Shown here piece after piece: positions 746-7,338 of a stretch of DNA of 32,073 nt (the first letter of the stretch is position 1; every line of letters starts with the position of its first letter). This stretch comes from a virus. Under the pieces are notes generated by a model. It saw nothing but the letters and a program-made list of their open reading frames with translations, was not told where the DNA came from and ran no database searches. The position numbers and the translations under genes were made by a program. The stretch lies in the IMG/VR virus record IMGVR_UViG_3300023210_000131, positions 1 to 32,073 of that record; one strand, given 5' to 3'.

Positions 746-1279
746 ATGCAAGTTAAAAAAGTAAAAATTTCAGAAATAATATCAAACCCTGACAATCCAA
801 GATTTATAAAAGACTATAAATTTGGGCAACTTGTTAAAAGTATTAGAGAGTTTCCAAAGATGTTACAGGTAAGACCTATTATAATCAACGATAAGAACAT
901 TATTCTTGGTGGGAATATGAGATATAAAGCAGCAGTAGAAGTTGGTTTAAAAGAAGTCTTTGTGCAGGTATTTGATGACTTAACGGAAGAAGAACAAAGA
1001 GAGTTTATAATTAAGGACAATATAGGCTTCGGAGAATGGGATTGGGATATTTTAGCAAACGATTGGGATGTTAATCAATTATCTGATTGGGGTCTTGATG
1101 CAATTAAACACGATTGGGAAGATTTAGACTATATTGATGAAGATGTTGCACCGCCAGAATTAGAAGAAACAAAACTTACTATAACTATTCCGAACGAGTA
1201 TAGAGATGAAAAACAACAATTAACAACTGATTTGAAAAATTGGATAACAGAAAACTATTTGGGTTGTGAAGTCAAATAA
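746..1279 (+). CDS. ParB/Srx-like domain protein
   Basis: A 177-residue protein with an N-terminal ParB/sulfiredoxin-like fold: an NPDNPR box near residue 14, then ILGGNMRYKAA (53-63), equivalent to the GGHRR box of ParB nucleases. In phages such proteins often sit beside DNA methyltransferases, and some have nuclease or CTPase activity; here the partner is a DNA base-exchange enzyme. The acidic, Trp-rich C-terminal half (about 95-130) has no assignment. The stop overlaps the GTG start of the next gene by 14 bases, so the two are probably translationally coupled. No partition partner (ParA) is seen. Confidence 0.75.
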   Translation: MQVKKVKISEIISNPDNPRFIKDYKFGQLVKSIREFPKMLQVRPIIINDKNIILGGNMRYKAAVEVGLKEVFVQVFDDLTEEEQREFIIKDNIGFGEWDWDILANDWDVNQLSDWGLDAIKHDWEDLDYIDEDVAPPELEETKLTITIPNEYRDEKQQLTTDLKNWITENYLGCEVK

Positions 1280-2159
1280 TACTTGGTTAAACATATTAGT
1301 AAGTTATGCTTACATAGGAAACAATAAAATGTTTACTGAACAAACAATGTCTTTAAGTCAGCAAGGTATTATTAATTGTATGATTGATAGTGGTGCGTTT
1401 ACGTTATTTAATTCAAAACAAGATTTAAAATTTTTAACATTAGATAACTATTGTGACTATATCTTGAAGCACGGACATAACGTAGAAAAATATGTTATGC
1501 TAGACGTTATTGGAAACCATAGTAAAAGTAAAGCAAACTATGAAACAATGTTACAAAGAGGTTTAGACCCTATGTTTGTGTTCACAATGTTTGATAATGA
1601 TTATTCTTATTTACAAGATGCGGTTAAAAGAAATAAGCACGTATGCGTTGCAGGTGGTGTAACAACAAAAGGAGAATGGATACAGAAAAGATATCAAGAC
1701 GTTTATAAACAAACAAAAGGAAATATACACGCACTTGGTTTTGTTAAATATCCTCAAATGTTACAACTGCCTTTACACTCTTGCGATAGTAGTTCTTGGG
1801 TACAATCTTCTCAAAAGTACGGAAACATAATGTACTTTGATAATGGACTTAAAAGTTTAGATTACAAAGCAATATTAAAAGGTAAAACAAAAATACCTTT
1901 CAAGGCTCAAATGATATTTGAACAATTAGAAATTACACCCAAGATGTTTAGTAATATAGATAACCACAGAGGTAGTAAAAGTATAGCAGTTCTAACTAAT
2001 TTAATAGCATACTTTGAATATCAAAAATTCTGTAAAAGGTTAGGTCTTAATTTATTTCTTGCAGTAGCAAATAGACAACAATTAACACATATCATAAAAA
2101 CAAACGAACTTTTAGAAAACAAACTAACATACGAAATATGGAAAAAAGAATTATCGTAA
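1266..2159 (+). CDS. dpdA: DpdA-like 7-deazaguanine DNA transglycosylase
   Basis: A 297-residue protein of the tRNA-guanine transglycosylase superfamily, in the shortened, divergent form found in phages. The segment MIDSGAFTLF (D41) matches the DSGGFQ motif holding the substrate-binding Asp of TGT. AGGV (129-132) matches the GGL motif. LGFVKYPQML followed by HSCDSSSW (D174) corresponds to the MGVGTP and FDCV region with the nucleophilic Asp. No C-terminal zinc-binding tRNA-recognition region is visible, consistent with a DNA substrate. Neighbouring QueD, QueE and FolE genes supply the base. The likely start is GTG at 1266, overlapping the upstream gene. A tRNA role is less likely in this context. 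Confidence 0.8.
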   Translation: MKSNNTWLNILVSYAYIGNNKMFTEQTMSLSQQGIINCMIDSGAFTLFNSKQDLKFLTLDNYCDYILKHGHNVEKYVMLDVIGNHSKSKANYETMLQRGLDPMFVFTMFDNDYSYLQDAVKRNKHVCVAGGVTTKGEWIQKRYQDVYKQTKGNIHALGFVKYPQMLQLPLHSCDSSSWVQSSQKYGNIMYFDNGLKSLDYKAILKGKTKIPFKAQMIFEQLEITPKMFSNIDNHRGSKSIAVLTNLIAYFEYQKFCKRLGLNLFLAVANRQQLTHIIKTNELLENKLTYEIWKKELS

Positions 2160-2479
2160 AACTAAATATAGAGGGGTTACACTATTGGCTAGATTGTCCT
2201 ATTGAAGAAGTTGCTTATTTAAAGCAATTACACCGTCATATGTTTCATATAAAGATAGAAAAGAACGTAACACATAACGATAGGGATATAGAAATCATAG
2301 AATTTAAACATAACATATTACAGTATTTAAGACTAAAATATTATAATAGTGTTGCAAGAACACATTGTTTTAACAATATGAGTTGCGAAATGATAGCACA
2401 AGAGATATTAGAAACTTTTGATGCAGATTCAGTTGAGGTTTTAGAAGATAACGAAAACGGAGCAATAATAAGAAGATGA
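2138..2479 (+). CDS. HRH-motif small protein of the deazaguanine cluster
   Basis: A 113-residue protein, not securely recognised. The stretch around residues 31-60 has LHRHMFHIKIE, then a VTHNDRDIEIIEF segment and KHNILQYL. This loosely parallels QueD/PTPS proteins, where an HGH zinc motif is followed by a strand and an MVxDFxxLK segment. The upstream zinc His, the catalytic Cys and the C-terminal Glu of QueD are not evident, so it could be a degenerate T-fold paralogue or an unrelated metal-binding protein. It overlaps dpdA by 22 bases and the glycosyltransferase gene by 4, placing it firmly in the modification operon. Confidence 0.4.
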   Translation: MEKRIIVKLNIEGLHYWLDCPIEEVAYLKQLHRHMFHIKIEKNVTHNDRDIEIIEFKHNILQYLRLKYYNSVARTHCFNNMSCEMIAQEILETFDADSVEVLEDNENGAIIRR

Positions 2480-3477
2480 TACATTTTATACCATTAGAAA
2501 ATTTAGAAGAAAGATATACAATATTAATGAATGATATTGTAAACAAATCAAAACTTGTTAAGTCTTATTACCCAATGGGGTGGCAACAGAAACAAATTAA
2601 CAAAGGAGAGTTTTTAGATATAGAAAGAACTATTGAGTTTAAGGCAAAGCAGTTGCAAATGATAAGCAAGGCTTTTCAAAATAACGAAATTAAAAACGGA
2701 GATTGGATATTCTTTGCTGATATATTCTTTTGCGGTTTAGATGCAGTAAAATATATGTCAGAGTTGCAAGGTCTAGATATAAAAGTTGCCGCGTTTAACC
2801 ACGCAGGTAGAGCAGATGAAACAGACTTTGTTCAACAATTAGGAGCTTGGAGTGATGTTGTTGAGTTGGGATATCATCAAGTATGCGATTTAATTATTGT
2901 AGGTAGTGAGTTTCATAAAAATAATGTACGGAAGTATTTCTATTTAGATAAAGATAAAGTACAAGTTACAGGTTGTGTTTGGAATAACAAAGAAGCGTTT
3001 AAAACATATCCCTATAAAGACACAAAAGAAGATTTTGTTATTTTTCCACATAGGTTAGCAAAAGAAAAAGGACTTGATGATTTTATAGAAATAGCAAATG
3101 CAATGCCTGATAAAAAGTTTATTGTAACATCATCTTCAAATAAAGAATGTAATCTTGATTTACCAAGTAATGTAAAATATGTAAATAATTTAACTAAAAG
3201 ACAATACTATTCTTATTTATCAAGAGCCAAGTATTATCTATCAACTGCTTATCAAGAAACTTTTGGTTATACATTACGAGAAGCGTTATTGTATGATTGT
3301 AGGATAGTAGCACCTAACGATTTATGTTATCCAGAAATGCTACCAGAAGAATGTCTTTATAACAGAGGAGATTTAGATACAATTAAAAAACATCTAACAA
3401 CTGATTTTGAAACTCCAAGAGGGTATAAGAATAAATATGATAACAGTTTTAAAGATATGATAAATTTATTACAATGA
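2476..3477 (+). CDS. GT4-type glycosyltransferase
   Basis: A 333-residue GT-B fold glycosyltransferase. The C-terminal half has the hallmark pieces of family GT4: FPHRLAKEKGLDDFIEIA (about 190-207), a strand with FIVTSS, then ETFGYTLREAL with the E-x7-E pair E261 and E269 that binds the sugar nucleotide. The N-terminal half contains a WIFFADIFFCGLD strand and SEFHKNNV (acceptor domain). There is no signal peptide or membrane segment. Its position inside the 7-deazaguanine operon, overlapping both neighbours by 4 bases, suggests a DNA-base substrate. Modification of host surface sugars or a virion protein is the main alternative. Confidence 0.8.
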   Translation: MIHFIPLENLEERYTILMNDIVNKSKLVKSYYPMGWQQKQINKGEFLDIERTIEFKAKQLQMISKAFQNNEIKNGDWIFFADIFFCGLDAVKYMSELQGLDIKVAAFNHAGRADETDFVQQLGAWSDVVELGYHQVCDLIIVGSEFHKNNVRKYFYLDKDKVQVTGCVWNNKEAFKTYPYKDTKEDFVIFPHRLAKEKGLDDFIEIANAMPDKKFIVTSSSNKECNLDLPSNVKYVNNLTKRQYYSYLSRAKYYLSTAYQETFGYTLREALLYDCRIVAPNDLCYPEMLPEECLYNRGDLDTIKKHLTTDFETPRGYKNKYDNSFKDMINLLQ

Positions 3478-3875
3478 GAGGAAAAGACTATTGGTACGGA
3501 AAAGAAGTAGAGGGTAGACTATTTGGACTATACACTTTATTTAATAGAAACAAATTAGGTGTAATTACAAAAGACGTACAACATTTATATTTTACAGTTG
3601 AGTTTTGGGAACAAGAACAAGCGGTTAGAATAATAGAAAGTGTACTACTTAAATATCCTATCTCGGTTGAAGTAACAAGCGAAACCTATAAACACCTAAC
3701 ACCTAATATAAAAGTTAGAGCACATATCATTTACCGAGTTAAAGATAAAAATGTATTTGACTTAAAAGAAACCGATAGTGTTTTTGTAGACGGAAATATG
3801 TTTAATGTTCTATGCTTTACAAAACACAACGCACTTAAAGTAGATTATAACGATTACTCAAACGATACCTTATGA
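3474..3875 (+). CDS. hypothetical protein in the deazaguanine cluster
   Basis: A 133-residue protein that I do not recognise. It is rich in alternating hydrophobic and charged stretches (for example KDVQHLYFTVEFWEQEQ and PNIKVRAHIIYRVKDK), which suggest a beta-containing fold. It has single, scattered Cys and His residues and no membrane segment. It overlaps the glycosyltransferase stop (ATGA) and the queD start by 4 bases each, so it is co-translated with modification genes and may belong to that pathway. No function is claimed. Confidence 0.6.
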   Translation: MRGKDYWYGKEVEGRLFGLYTLFNRNKLGVITKDVQHLYFTVEFWEQEQAVRIIESVLLKYPISVEVTSETYKHLTPNIKVRAHIIYRVKDKNVFDLKETDSVFVDGNMFNVLCFTKHNALKVDYNDYSNDTL

Positions 3876-4270
3876 AAATAGAAAAGAAATATTACTTCTA
3901 TGCAGGTCATAGAAACAAATCAGCAGGAGAGAAATGTGGTAGACCTCACGGACACACTTATGATGTAACTTGTACGTTTAGGTTTGCAGCAATGAAGAAT
4001 GGAATAACAATGTTGTTTTCTGATATTGATAAATTAGTTGAGCCAATCATAAAAGAATACGACCATTACTTTTTACTATGCGATGATGACCCATTGGTTG
4101 AGATTTTAGAATTAGCAGGAGAACAATATAAAACAGTACCTTTTGAAACTTCTGCCGAGAATATGGCTATATGGTTATTCAATAGAATAAAAAACGAAGC
4201 AGGACTACCAATTATAAAAATAGAGTTTGCAGAAACTAAATCAAGTAAAATAATATATGAAGAAGAATAA
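3872..4270 (+). CDS. queD: QueD, 6-carboxy-tetrahydropterin synthase
   Basis: A 132-residue T-fold enzyme converting dihydroneopterin triphosphate to 6-carboxy-5,6,7,8-tetrahydropterin. All active-site residues are visible: zinc ligands H13, H26 and H28 (PHGH), nucleophile C22, the D64-H65 pair in KEYDHYFLL, and the C-terminal Glu E121 in FAETKSS. The length is normal for the family. It follows FolE chemistry and precedes QueE chemistry in the preQ0 pathway, although the gene order here is reversed. It overlaps its upstream neighbour by 4 bases and queE by 14 bases. Confidence 0.93.
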   Translation: MKIEKKYYFYAGHRNKSAGEKCGRPHGHTYDVTCTFRFAAMKNGITMLFSDIDKLVEPIIKEYDHYFLLCDDDPLVEILELAGEQYKTVPFETSAENMAIWLFNRIKNEAGLPIIKIEFAETKSSKIIYEEE

Positions 4271-4991
4271 ATTAGCAATAAGTGAAGTCTTTTACTCTAT
4301 ACAAGGAGAGGGTAAGACAGTAGGCATACCAAGTGTATTTGTACGACTAGGCGGTTGTAATTTAATGTGTGGAGGTATGGGAACACAATTTGACGGAGAA
4401 CTACATAACGAAGCCGAGTGGCGATGTGATAGTGTTGAAGTATGGATGAAAGCATTATCAAAAGAATATGAAGAAATATTACCAGATGATTGCGTTGAAG
4501 CAATAAAAAATGGCGCACATATTATTCTAACAGGTGGAGAACCAATGATGCAACAAAGTGGGTTAGAGGGTTTCATTAGTTATATTAAACATAACATAAA
4601 CGCAAATGCTTATTTTGAAGTTGAAACAAACGGAACAATAATGCCGAGTGAAGATTTGTTATACAAAATTCAGTTATGGAATTGTAGTCCGAAATTAAGA
4701 AATAGTGGTATGGATAATGCTATGACTTTTAAACCTGATGTAATAAAAGAATTAAATAAAAAGAATACAATTTTTAAATTTGTAGTTAATTCAGATAAGG
4801 AATGGCAAGAGATAGAAAGAGATTACTTACCTATTGTAGAGAGAGAGAAAATCTATTTAATGCCTGCAGGTGAGAATCAAGATTTATTAAATGAAAACAA
4901 ATTAAGAGTAATAGAATTAGCAAAAGAAAAATATTTAAACTTTACAACAAGACTACACATTGATGTGTGGAATAAAAAAACAGGAGTATAA
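4257..4991 (+). CDS. queE: QueE, 7-carboxy-7-deazaguanine synthase
   Basis: A 244-residue radical-SAM enzyme that rearranges 6-carboxytetrahydropterin to 7-carboxy-7-deazaguanine. Family marks are FYSIQGEGKTVGIPSVFVR near residue 12, GGCNLMC (C34, C38) for the iron-sulfur cluster, and ILTGGEPMMQQ for SAM binding. The third cluster Cys appears to be C57 in WRCDS, giving C-x3-C-x18-C instead of the usual C-x3-C-x2-C; I take this as an insert typical of phage-type QueE. This is the last step of the pathway encoded here, because no QueC is found. The stop overlaps the next start by one base. Confidence 0.93.
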   Translation: MKKNKLAISEVFYSIQGEGKTVGIPSVFVRLGGCNLMCGGMGTQFDGELHNEAEWRCDSVEVWMKALSKEYEEILPDDCVEAIKNGAHIILTGGEPMMQQSGLEGFISYIKHNINANAYFEVETNGTIMPSEDLLYKIQLWNCSPKLRNSGMDNAMTFKPDVIKELNKKNTIFKFVVNSDKEWQEIERDYLPIVEREKIYLMPAGENQDLLNENKLRVIELAKEKYLNFTTRLHIDVWNKKTGV

Positions 4992-5839
4992 TGATAAAAA
5001 CAAATATAACGTGGGAACAAGTTTACCACAGGCTAAATGAAGTAATAAAAGACTTACCAAAAAATACTAAATACTATGGAGTACCAAGAGGTGGGCAAGT
5101 AGTTGCAGGAATGACAGGAAACGCAGTTGATAATATTGAAGATGCTGATGTTATTATTGATGACTTAATTGATAGCGGAGCAACCGAGAAGCGATATAAA
5201 AAATATAACAAACCATTTCTTTCATTAATAGACAAGAGAAAAGAACTTCAAGGCGAATGGTTAGTCTTTCCTTGGGAAGCAAAAGTCGGAGATACAGACG
5301 AAACAGTAGAAGATAATGTATCAAGATTATTACAATACTTTGGGGAAGATATAAACAGAGAGGGGTTGCAAGAAACACCCAAAAGATTTATAAAGTTCTT
5401 TAAAGAGTTTTTAAACCCACCAGATTGGAATTGTACAAGTTTTGAGGGAGAGGGTTATGATGAAATGATAGTTCAAACAAATATACCTTTTCATAGTTTA
5501 TGCGAACATCATATAGCACCTTTCTTTGGCACAGGTACAATAGCTTACATACCTAACAAAAGAATTGTAGGGTTAAGTAAATTAGCAAGAACATTAGAAA
5601 CCTATGCAAGACGATTACAAAACCAAGAACGAATCACTACGCAGGTTGCAGAATTTTTATGGAATGAATTAGAACCAAAAGGAGTAGCAGTACAAATAAC
5701 TGCAAAACATATGTGTATGGAAATGAGAGGAGTTAAGAAGCACGACACTTGGACGACAACTACAAAATTATTAGGTGCTTTCAAAGACGATATAAACACA
5801 AAGAATGAATTTTTAAATAGTATCAAAAATGGTAAGTAG
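4991..5839 (+). CDS. folE: phosphoribosyltransferase-like domain fused to GTP cyclohydrolase I
   Basis: A 282-residue two-domain protein. Residues 1-95 look like a type I phosphoribosyltransferase: YYGVPRGGQVVAG (28-40) and the PRPP-binding loop DADVIIDDLIDSGAT (51-65). Residues about 105-265 are GTP cyclohydrolase I, with SLCEHHIAPFFG (C171, H173, H174), HMCMEMRGV (C242) and TKLLGAF. FolE opens the preQ0 pathway by converting GTP to dihydroneopterin triphosphate. The added domain may salvage a nucleobase to raise the nucleotide pool or bind PRPP as a regulator; its substrate cannot be read from sequence. The stop overlaps the terminase small-subunit start by 11 bases. Confidence 0.9.
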   Translation: MIKTNITWEQVYHRLNEVIKDLPKNTKYYGVPRGGQVVAGMTGNAVDNIEDADVIIDDLIDSGATEKRYKKYNKPFLSLIDKRKELQGEWLVFPWEAKVGDTDETVEDNVSRLLQYFGEDINREGLQETPKRFIKFFKEFLNPPDWNCTSFEGEGYDEMIVQTNIPFHSLCEHHIAPFFGTGTIAYIPNKRIVGLSKLARTLETYARRLQNQERITTQVAEFLWNELEPKGVAVQITAKHMCMEMRGVKKHDTWTTTTKLLGAFKDDINTKNEFLNSIKNGK

Positions 5840-6203
5840 CGAACAAACCGAACACAATAAAAAGAATGTACTTGAAGCATTAGAAAAATCATTTGGTATT
5901 GTAACAACTGCTTGTAAAACTGTTGGTGTAGGTAGAACACAATTTTACCAATGGTTAAAAGATGATGCCGAGTTTAAGAAGCAAGTAGATGATTTACAGA
6001 ATGTAACTTTGGATATGGCAGAGAGCCAATTGCACAAACAAATTCTTGGTGGTAACACAACTGCTACTATATTCTATTTAAAAACAAAAGGTAAGAAAAG
6101 AGGATATGTTGAGCGACAAGAAATAACAGGAATTGAAGGAACTAAATTATTTGATATTGAAGTTGTAAGAACAGTCAATAATGAAGACGAGCATACGGAC
6201 TAA
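5829..6203 (+). CDS. terS: terminase small subunit
   Basis: A 124-residue HTH protein of the terminase small-subunit type. An N-terminal HTH (ACKTVGVGRTQFYQWLKDD, about 28-46) should recognise the packaging site. An oligomerisation helix (LQNVTLDMAESQLHKQI) and the family-typical IFYLKTKGKKRGYVER segment follow. It overlaps the folE stop by 11 bases and terL by 23 bases, so packaging genes are expressed from the same transcript as the base-modification genes. Confidence 0.85.
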   Translation: MVSSEQTEHNKKNVLEALEKSFGIVTTACKTVGVGRTQFYQWLKDDAEFKKQVDDLQNVTLDMAESQLHKQILGGNTTATIFYLKTKGKKRGYVERQEITGIEGTKLFDIEVVRTVNNEDEHTD

Positions 6204-7338
6204 TGTTGTATATGAACACCTCCGAGATTCAAAAGAAAAAATTGTTGTAGAACAAGGTGGAACAAGGAGTGGTAAAACATATAACATTTTACTATTTATT
6301 ATTTTTAAGTATTGTACAGACAATGTAGGTAAGACAATAACAATCTGCCGAAAGACATTTCCTGCATTACGAGGAACTGTTATGCGTGACTTCTTTGATA
6401 TATTAAAATCGCAAGAAATATACAGAGAAGAGTTTCATTCTAAATCTACACACGAATATCACTTAAACGGAAACCTTGTAGAATTTATTTCATTAGACCA
6501 ACCACAAAAAATTAGAGGTCGTAAAAGAGATTTCTTATTTTGTAATGAAGCAAATGAATTAACCTTTGAAGATTGGCAGCAGTTAATATTTAGAACAACA
6601 GAAAGAATAGTAATTGACTTTAACCCCTCTGATGAATTTCATTGGATATATGATAGGGTGCTAACAAGAGAAGATACTGAATTTTACCAAACATCATATT
6701 TAGACAATCCTTTCTTATCAGACACAATAATAAAAGAAATTGAAAGACTTAAATATATTGATGAGAACTATTGGAGAGTTTACGGACTTGGAGAACGTGG
6801 TAAGAGCCGCTCTCTTGTATTTAATTTCACAACTATACCCTTTGTTCCAGAAAATGCTAAACTCGTAGGGAGAGGGCTTGATTTCGGTTTTACAAATGAC
6901 CCAACTGCATTAGTTGAAACTTATGTTGAGGGAGATAATATGTATGTAAGGGAGTTGCTTTATAGAACAGGACTAACAAATCAAGATATTGGTAATGAAT
7001 TAAAAAGATTAGAACTTGATAGACGAGATGAGGTATGGTGTGATAGTGCCGAGCCAAAAAGTATAGAAGAAATACACAGAATGGGTTGGAACACAAAGAA
7101 AACTTTCAAAGGAGATATTACTATCGGTATTGATATTATAAGGCGATACAAATTATTTGCAACAGATGATAGTATTAATCTTATAAAAGAATTAAAAAAC
7201 TACAAATACATAGAAGACAAAAACGGACAATTAACAAATAAACCTATTGATGCTTTCAATCATACTCTTGATGCGTTGAGATATAGTGTTGTTAATAGAT
7301 TATCTAAACCTAAATACGGAAAGTATTTCATTAGATAA
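6181..7338 (+). CDS. terL: terminase large subunit
   Basis: A 385-residue packaging motor of the PBSX/Terminase_3 type. The N-terminal ATPase has Walker A GGTRSGKT (26-33) and Walker B DFLFCNEA with catalytic E123. The C-terminal RNase H-like nuclease has D234 in GLDFGFTNDPTA, D288 in WCDSAEP and D357/D364 in IDAFNHTLDALRY. The length is slightly short but complete. The portal gene is 12.7 kb downstream instead of adjacent. It closes the operon; a promoter-like site and the accessory genes follow. Confidence 0.95.
   Translation: MKTSIRTNVVYEHLRDSKEKIVVEQGGTRSGKTYNILLFIIFKYCTDNVGKTITICRKTFPALRGTVMRDFFDILKSQEIYREEFHSKSTHEYHLNGNLVEFISLDQPQKIRGRKRDFLFCNEANELTFEDWQQLIFRTTERIVIDFNPSDEFHWIYDRVLTREDTEFYQTSYLDNPFLSDTIIKEIERLKYIDENYWRVYGLGERGKSRSLVFNFTTIPFVPENAKLVGRGLDFGFTNDPTALVETYVEGDNMYVRELLYRTGLTNQDIGNELKRLELDRRDEVWCDSAEPKSIEEIHRMGWNTKKTFKGDITIGIDIIRRYKLFATDDSINLIKELKNYKYIEDKNGQLTNKPIDAFNHTLDALRYSVVNRLSKPKYGKYFIR

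Follow-up and report, generated by a model that had tools for sequence, protein, structure and literature searches.

How does a phage that encodes the enzymes for 7-carboxy-7-deazaguanine (CDG) complete its modified base when it carries no QueC to take CDG further? The question is raised by the linear IMG/VR contig IMGVR_UViG_3300023210_000131, which is possibly incomplete and whose 32,073 bases constitute the window analysed in this study. Seven overlapping genes on the + strand occupy positions 1266-5839, encoding in order the transglycosylase DpdA, a 113-aa protein referred to here as D113, a glycosyltransferase (GT), a 133-aa protein, QueD, QueE and a phosphoribosyltransferase (PRTase)-FolE fusion, and are followed by the terminase genes. 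An initial annotation of this DNA had placed DpdA, QueD, QueE and FolE in one overlapping operon, as family matches and reading frames confirm, and had overlooked the other three genes of the interval, namely D113, the GT and the 133-aa protein. Its interpretation as a phage 7-deazaguanine DNA-modification operon making CDG without QueC is retained, whereas the idea that the pathway ends at the carboxy base does not account best for the locus: D113 fills the position of QueC, and the two genes, found in 31 and 33 related operons respectively, never occur together. The initial interpretation is thus partly supported, with CDG as an intermediate in an operon that has its own candidate finishing enzyme and a linked GT.

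The absence of QueC was examined at several levels. The PF06508 profile has no match in the possibly incomplete 32,073-base record, which accordingly holds no QueC-like ATP-PPase gene of the kind named beforehand as evidence against the annotated pathway. Eighty relatives were gathered with the PRTase-FolE fusion as query, and these share a common backbone in which ParB is followed by a variable module, QueD, QueE, the PRTase-FolE fusion and the small and large terminase subunits, the module lying after FolE in some. Counting each contig once, the module of 64 related contigs contains D113 in 31 and QueC in 33, with both in none (Fisher 6e-19, uncorrected for descent). On a tree of the FolE fusions with 63 rows, a quick tree in which long branches were flagged, the D113/QueC state changes at least 16 times by parsimony, and at least five of the changes are forced by well-supported branches. 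A search of 50 records with the QueC Pfam profile recovered the gene from 20, all of them without D113, and from none of the 26 that carry D113; ten further D113-bearing records (isolate genomes and long viral contigs, five of each) gave no match over the cut-off. In total, 36 D113-bearing records are without QueC over the cut-off, including nine full isolate genomes that also encode QueE. No overlooked QueC was thus recovered over the cut-off from the window or from the D113 phages, the Xanthomonas phage X1 giving one sub-threshold match (16 bits) distant from its cluster. QueF, for its part, co-occurs solely with QueC (five cases versus none with D113). Since D113 and QueC are exclusive both in operons and in records, and have repeatedly been swapped, they are best understood as alternative users of CDG, and D113 occupies the QueC step.

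Some operons of the clade required closer inspection. Three of the 33 QueC operons carry a 142-aa mini-QueC in the QueC slot (L067:4461-4889, L069:1970-2395 and L087:412-852); a gene considered as a third finishing enzyme, c36, was rejected as such, being itself a mini-QueC (PF06508 6e-12). The 20 operons with neither gene, contig L130 aside, start so near the end of their contig that the module is out of view. A subset of the D113 contigs, L034-L053, consists of fragments that yielded no FolE; two of the longest among them, L042 and L044, did yield QueE.

D113 (2138..2479, + strand) belongs to PHROG 17812 (phrog_17812, E 2e-21) and matches no Pfam family. Its highly confident AlphaFold2 model (pLDDT, the predicted local distance difference test, of 96.6) finds its nearest solved structures among QueD proteins, with a Foldseek E of 1.7e-6 to E. 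coli QueD and, in a VIA-align comparison, a Z of 12.8 and 2.0 A over 105 residues. Profile comparison aligns D113 residues H15, H32, H34, E84 and E103 with QueD H13, H26, H28, E96 and E121, and the residues invariant in 45 D113 sequences include H15, H32, R33, H34, E52, S82-C83-E84, E103 and D104. D113 therefore shares with the QueD/6-pyruvoyl tetrahydropterin synthase (PTPS) family, represented by E. coli QueD (4ntk), a T-fold, three zinc-type histidines and the pterin-anchoring glutamate. In PTPS/QueD enzymes zinc is coordinated by the three histidines, and the last glutamate anchors a 2-amino-4-oxo-pyrimidine ring that CDG also contains. Unlike QueD, D113 is shorter and has HRH in place of HGH, and the catalytic C22 and the D64-H65 pair of QueD find no counterpart among its conserved columns, for which reason we rejected the possibility that D113 is a QueD duplicate. 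With the histidines and glutamate kept and the QueD catalytic residues missing, D113 looks built for a CDG-type ring but for a different reaction.

Relatives of D113 occur in cultured phages: in phiST, ACP17 and RHph_I1_18 they lie by or close to FolE, QueD and QueE, and in MA9V-3 close to FolE and QueE. In the latter, a Chryseobacterium phage, a single annotated open reading frame (ORF; L001:5431-6333) encodes an HNH/endonuclease VII-like domain followed by the D113 domain. Both phiST (L003:7801-8580) and MA9V-3 (L001:6809-7603) also encode, in the vicinity of D113, members of phrog_20335 that carry an LDNGAGDHD motif and may be divergent transglycosylases. In another D113-bearing record, IMGVR_UViG_3300028595_000022 (L051), the FolE and QueE matches are interrupted solely by TGA (9 and 16 TGA), which suggests a phage in which TGA codes for an amino acid.

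The gene following D113 (2476..3477, + strand) encodes a GT4-type retaining GT of GT-B fold (PF00534, E 3e-9). An N-terminal E-x4-R-Y-T and Q59 are invariant in 19 sequences, and the C-terminal motif of the E-x7-E type reads QETFGYTLREA in the window protein. Foldseek matches include BshA/MshA-type GT4 enzymes (1.9e-12), the ACP17 glycosyltransferase (1.2e-19) and a pterin glucosyltransferase. This GT occurs in 16 of 31 D113 operons versus none of 33 QueC operons (Fisher 6e-7, with no correction for shared descent). It has 20 matches in a set of 50,697 phage records, 16 of which, from five phage groups, have D113 close by; it adjoins D113 in ACP17, PA5oct, Phosso and BUCT-ZZ01, and in X1 a transglycosylase lies between the two. 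Matches in Xanthomonas PhiXhv and Erwinia phages were set aside as partial protein, that of PhiXhv lying beside sugar genes without D113. The linkage is strong evidence that the GT and D113 share a pathway, whatever receives the sugar.

QueD (3872..4270, + strand; Pfam PTPS, E 3e-24; TIGR03367, 2.6e-18, below its cut-off), a 6-carboxytetrahydropterin synthase, has H13, C22, H26, H28, D64-H65 and E121 all present. QueE (4257..4991, + strand), the radical SAM CDG synthase (phrog_2076, E 2e-54), and FolE (5279..5839, + strand), GTP cyclohydrolase I (PF01227, E 7e-63; NF006826, 9.7e-62, over its cut-off), keep the identities first assigned to them, with two amendments. The three cysteines of QueE follow a non-standard spacing, C34-x3-C38-x18-C57, which is conserved in 68 relatives and amounts, relative to C-x3-C-x2-C, to an insertion of some 16 residues between the last two Cys. 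FolE, whose C171, H174 and C242 are conserved among relatives, forms the C-terminal part of a fusion ORF (4991-5839) opening with a purine PRTase-like domain (4991..5278, + strand; PHROG phosphoribosyl transferase, 0.004; NCBIfam xanthine PRTase, 0.005). In these N-terminal 96 residues, PRGG (32-35), the phosphoribosyl pyrophosphate (PRPP) loop IDDLIDSGAT and PWE (94-96) are conserved in 72 fusions. The domain is short and has no hood/flexible loop, lacking the segment seen in the 153-aa enzyme of BUCT-ZZ01, a phage with a freestanding xanthine-guanine phosphoribosyltransferase in the same cluster; contig L153 likewise has a freestanding relative. Cultured Vibrio and Pseudomonas phages encode the fusion too, under the sole annotation of GTP cyclohydrolase.

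DpdA (1266..2159, + strand), a DNA guanine transglycosylase-like protein of 297 aa (PHROG 887, E 1e-29), has the D41 (DSG) and D174 (CDSS) pointed out in the initial annotation, which correspond to the nucleophile and acid/base aspartates of tRNA-guanine transglycosylase (TGT) and are both invariant in 36 DpdA from all operon classes. It is a basic protein (isoelectric point, pI, of 9.2) of the sub-type that accompanies D113 and the GT in the clade. DpdA proteins of D113 and GT operons score only 25-68 bits against QueC-linked DpdA. PHROG 887 also takes in the latter.

From these elements we lean towards a post-replicative guanine-replacement operon in which D113 finishes CDG in the place of QueC. 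FolE, QueD and QueE would convert GTP to CDG, through the chemistry summarised in PMC13329287. D113 would then act on CDG, most likely removing its carboxylate to yield 7-deazaguanine, as a DpdL-like decarboxylase, and the basic DpdA would exchange guanine in phage DNA for the D113-derived base. What D113 produces is probably decorated by the GT, either ahead of insertion or once the base is in DNA, and the fusion of a PRTase domain to FolE suggests recycling, such that guanine released by DpdA is probably returned to GMP/GTP. The proposed decarboxylation of CDG is the simplest reaction compatible with the place of D113 in the operon, with its fold and with what is reported of 7-deazaguanine in phage DNA and of DpdL. 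A more specific proposal, that D113 and the GT together install a glycosylated 7-deazaguanine in the DNA of this marine clade and of PA5oct, ACP17, X1, Phosso and BUCT-ZZ01, is put forward tentatively, as a possibility somewhat short of probable. To our knowledge, a sugar-bearing 7-deazaguanine replacing guanine in phage DNA has no description.

Several observations weigh against this interpretation. The hhalign probability for D113 and QueD is just 12% (E 0.0026), so that the case for their homology depends chiefly on the predicted fold. The GT is not basic (pI 5.9). Nor does 7-deazaguanine by itself offer a hydroxyl to which a sugar could be attached; decarboxylation by D113 and a GT acting on the base are therefore compatible only if the sugar is attached to carbon or nitrogen, or if D113 yields another product. 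In addition, the window (1-32073) contains no GATC, versus 47 expected by shuffles and 66 by a Markov model, and no CATG, CCGG or GGCC, versus 79, 15 and 8.5 expected. Loss of these sites seems to be how the phage evades part of the restriction it meets. The purging argues against a general protection from restriction, and modification alone may not relieve it. L007 and L008, the nearest relatives that share its module, retain GATC and CATG sites, other members of the clade are without various of the four sites irrespective of module, and the examined stretches of D113 isolates from other lineages are not purged of them. Site loss does not itself refute modification, which may be partial or directed at other defences.

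Different scenarios might otherwise explain the operon. D113 could be another CDG-modifying T-fold enzyme that makes with the GT a sugar conjugate of CDG, for instance via the carboxylate, which is either inserted by DpdA or made on the DNA. The strict linkage of the GT to D113 in unrelated phages is what such a scenario would lead one to expect, as is the proximity of the GT fold to small-molecule GT4 enzymes such as BshA, but about half of the D113 operons of the clade have no such GT, and none lies near D113 in MA9V-3, phiST, RHph_I1_18 and Ahp1. D113 thus works without the GT, and we consider this scenario unlikely.

An operon with no finishing enzyme, in which DpdA inserts CDG (giving dCDG) and D113 serves an unrelated purpose, such as helping QueD or binding pterin, also appears rather improbable. 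It draws on the absence of QueC from the record, and on L130 (4830-8580), the sole uncut relative operon with DpdA but neither QueC nor D113, in which CDG genes are present and DpdA is followed by a 154-aa protein; this may possibly be a true CDG phage, or the carrier of another finishing enzyme. Both dCDG and 7-deazaguanine are said to have been reported already in phage DNA, by Cui et al. 2023. The mutual replacement of D113 and QueC would nonetheless be unexpected for an unrelated gene, and in nine complete genomes of phages from several groups D113 accompanies a QueE-based pathway.

Completion by a host QueC, which the initial annotation had offered as its other option and which would lead to insertion of preQ0 or ADG as in the sister phages, is a still weaker explanation. 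Bacteria commonly encode QueC, which a control search detected in 12 of 14 well-known genomes, but sister phages with the same backbone that use QueC encode their own copy, those with D113 never do so, and the DpdA accompanying D113 and the GT is of a sub-type distinct from the QueC-linked one. Finally, modification of tRNA or of a free metabolite, which would accord with the fold shared by DpdA and TGT and with the purged restriction sites, is very improbable given that DpdA matches a phage family, PHROG 887, common to the DpdA of QueC operons and that the DpdA of phage 9g has been shown to act on DNA (Hutinet 2019, PMC6884629).

In most of the clade, a ParB-domain protein (746..1279, + strand; PF02195, 1.3e-6; synteny) consistently borders the swapped module on its left, and the terminase small and large subunits (5829..7338, + strand; small subunit PHROG 4044, 2.6e-8; large subunit from sequence and synteny) are the constant right neighbours of the operon. 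The small protein of 133 aa (3474..3875, + strand) is conserved in at least eight relatives and occurs in part of the D113 and GT operons, without a family match in Pfam, PHROG or NCBIfam. No tRNA was found in the window. Flavobacterium phage 1/32 has a single 70-base match to it, and a contig of a Flavobacterium metagenome-assembled genome (L150) carries a similar operon.

The preferred reading, D113 as the enzyme that finishes CDG, has consequences beyond this contig. Sister phages keep the CDG-making core and swap just the finishing enzyme and DpdA, and the product is therefore predictable from the genes. A QueD-fold stand-in for QueC represents a concrete enzyme candidate, and its linked GT predicts a hypermodified guanine in phages already in culture.

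Among known systems, the dPreQ0/dG+ pathway of phages CAjan, Rosebush and 9g (PMC6884629) likewise has FolE, QueD, QueE and DpdA in one cluster; the window differs in having D113 and a GT and no QueC or Gat-QueC, as well as a DpdA of another sub-type. Mycobacterium phage Bipper, with FolE, QueD, QueE and DpdA without QueC, has been described as possibly CDG-modified (Hutinet 2019, PMC6884629). Its DpdA is 29% identical to that of the window over 63%, and no Mycobacterium phage was found among the D113 matches. The PA5oct group (Pseudomonas), Acidovorax ACP17, Xanthomonas X1, Sinorhizobium Phosso and Synechococcus BUCT-ZZ01 have D113 and the same GT family near QueE, and several of them (ACP17, X1, BUCT-ZZ01 and PA5oct) also carry cluster proteins with TGT-type DSGG motifs. 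They differ in gene order and in the family of DpdA, which is phrog_10773 in ACP17, X1 and BUCT-ZZ01; the DpdA of the isolates with D113 escapes the PHROG 887 profile, and no PRTase-FolE fusion was seen in the stretches of these five examined.

A last comparison concerns DpdL, which, in Cui et al. 2023, is reportedly a predicted CDG decarboxylase of phage dDG/dCDG pathways. A linked GT4 glycosyltransferase is not known to us from that work. As in the window, those pathways are said to make CDG without QueC and to depend on an additional, dedicated enzyme for which loss of the carboxylate is the predicted reaction. D113 takes such a DpdL-type place, replacing QueC in FolE-QueD-QueE-DpdA pathways, and it is in this role that we liken the two.

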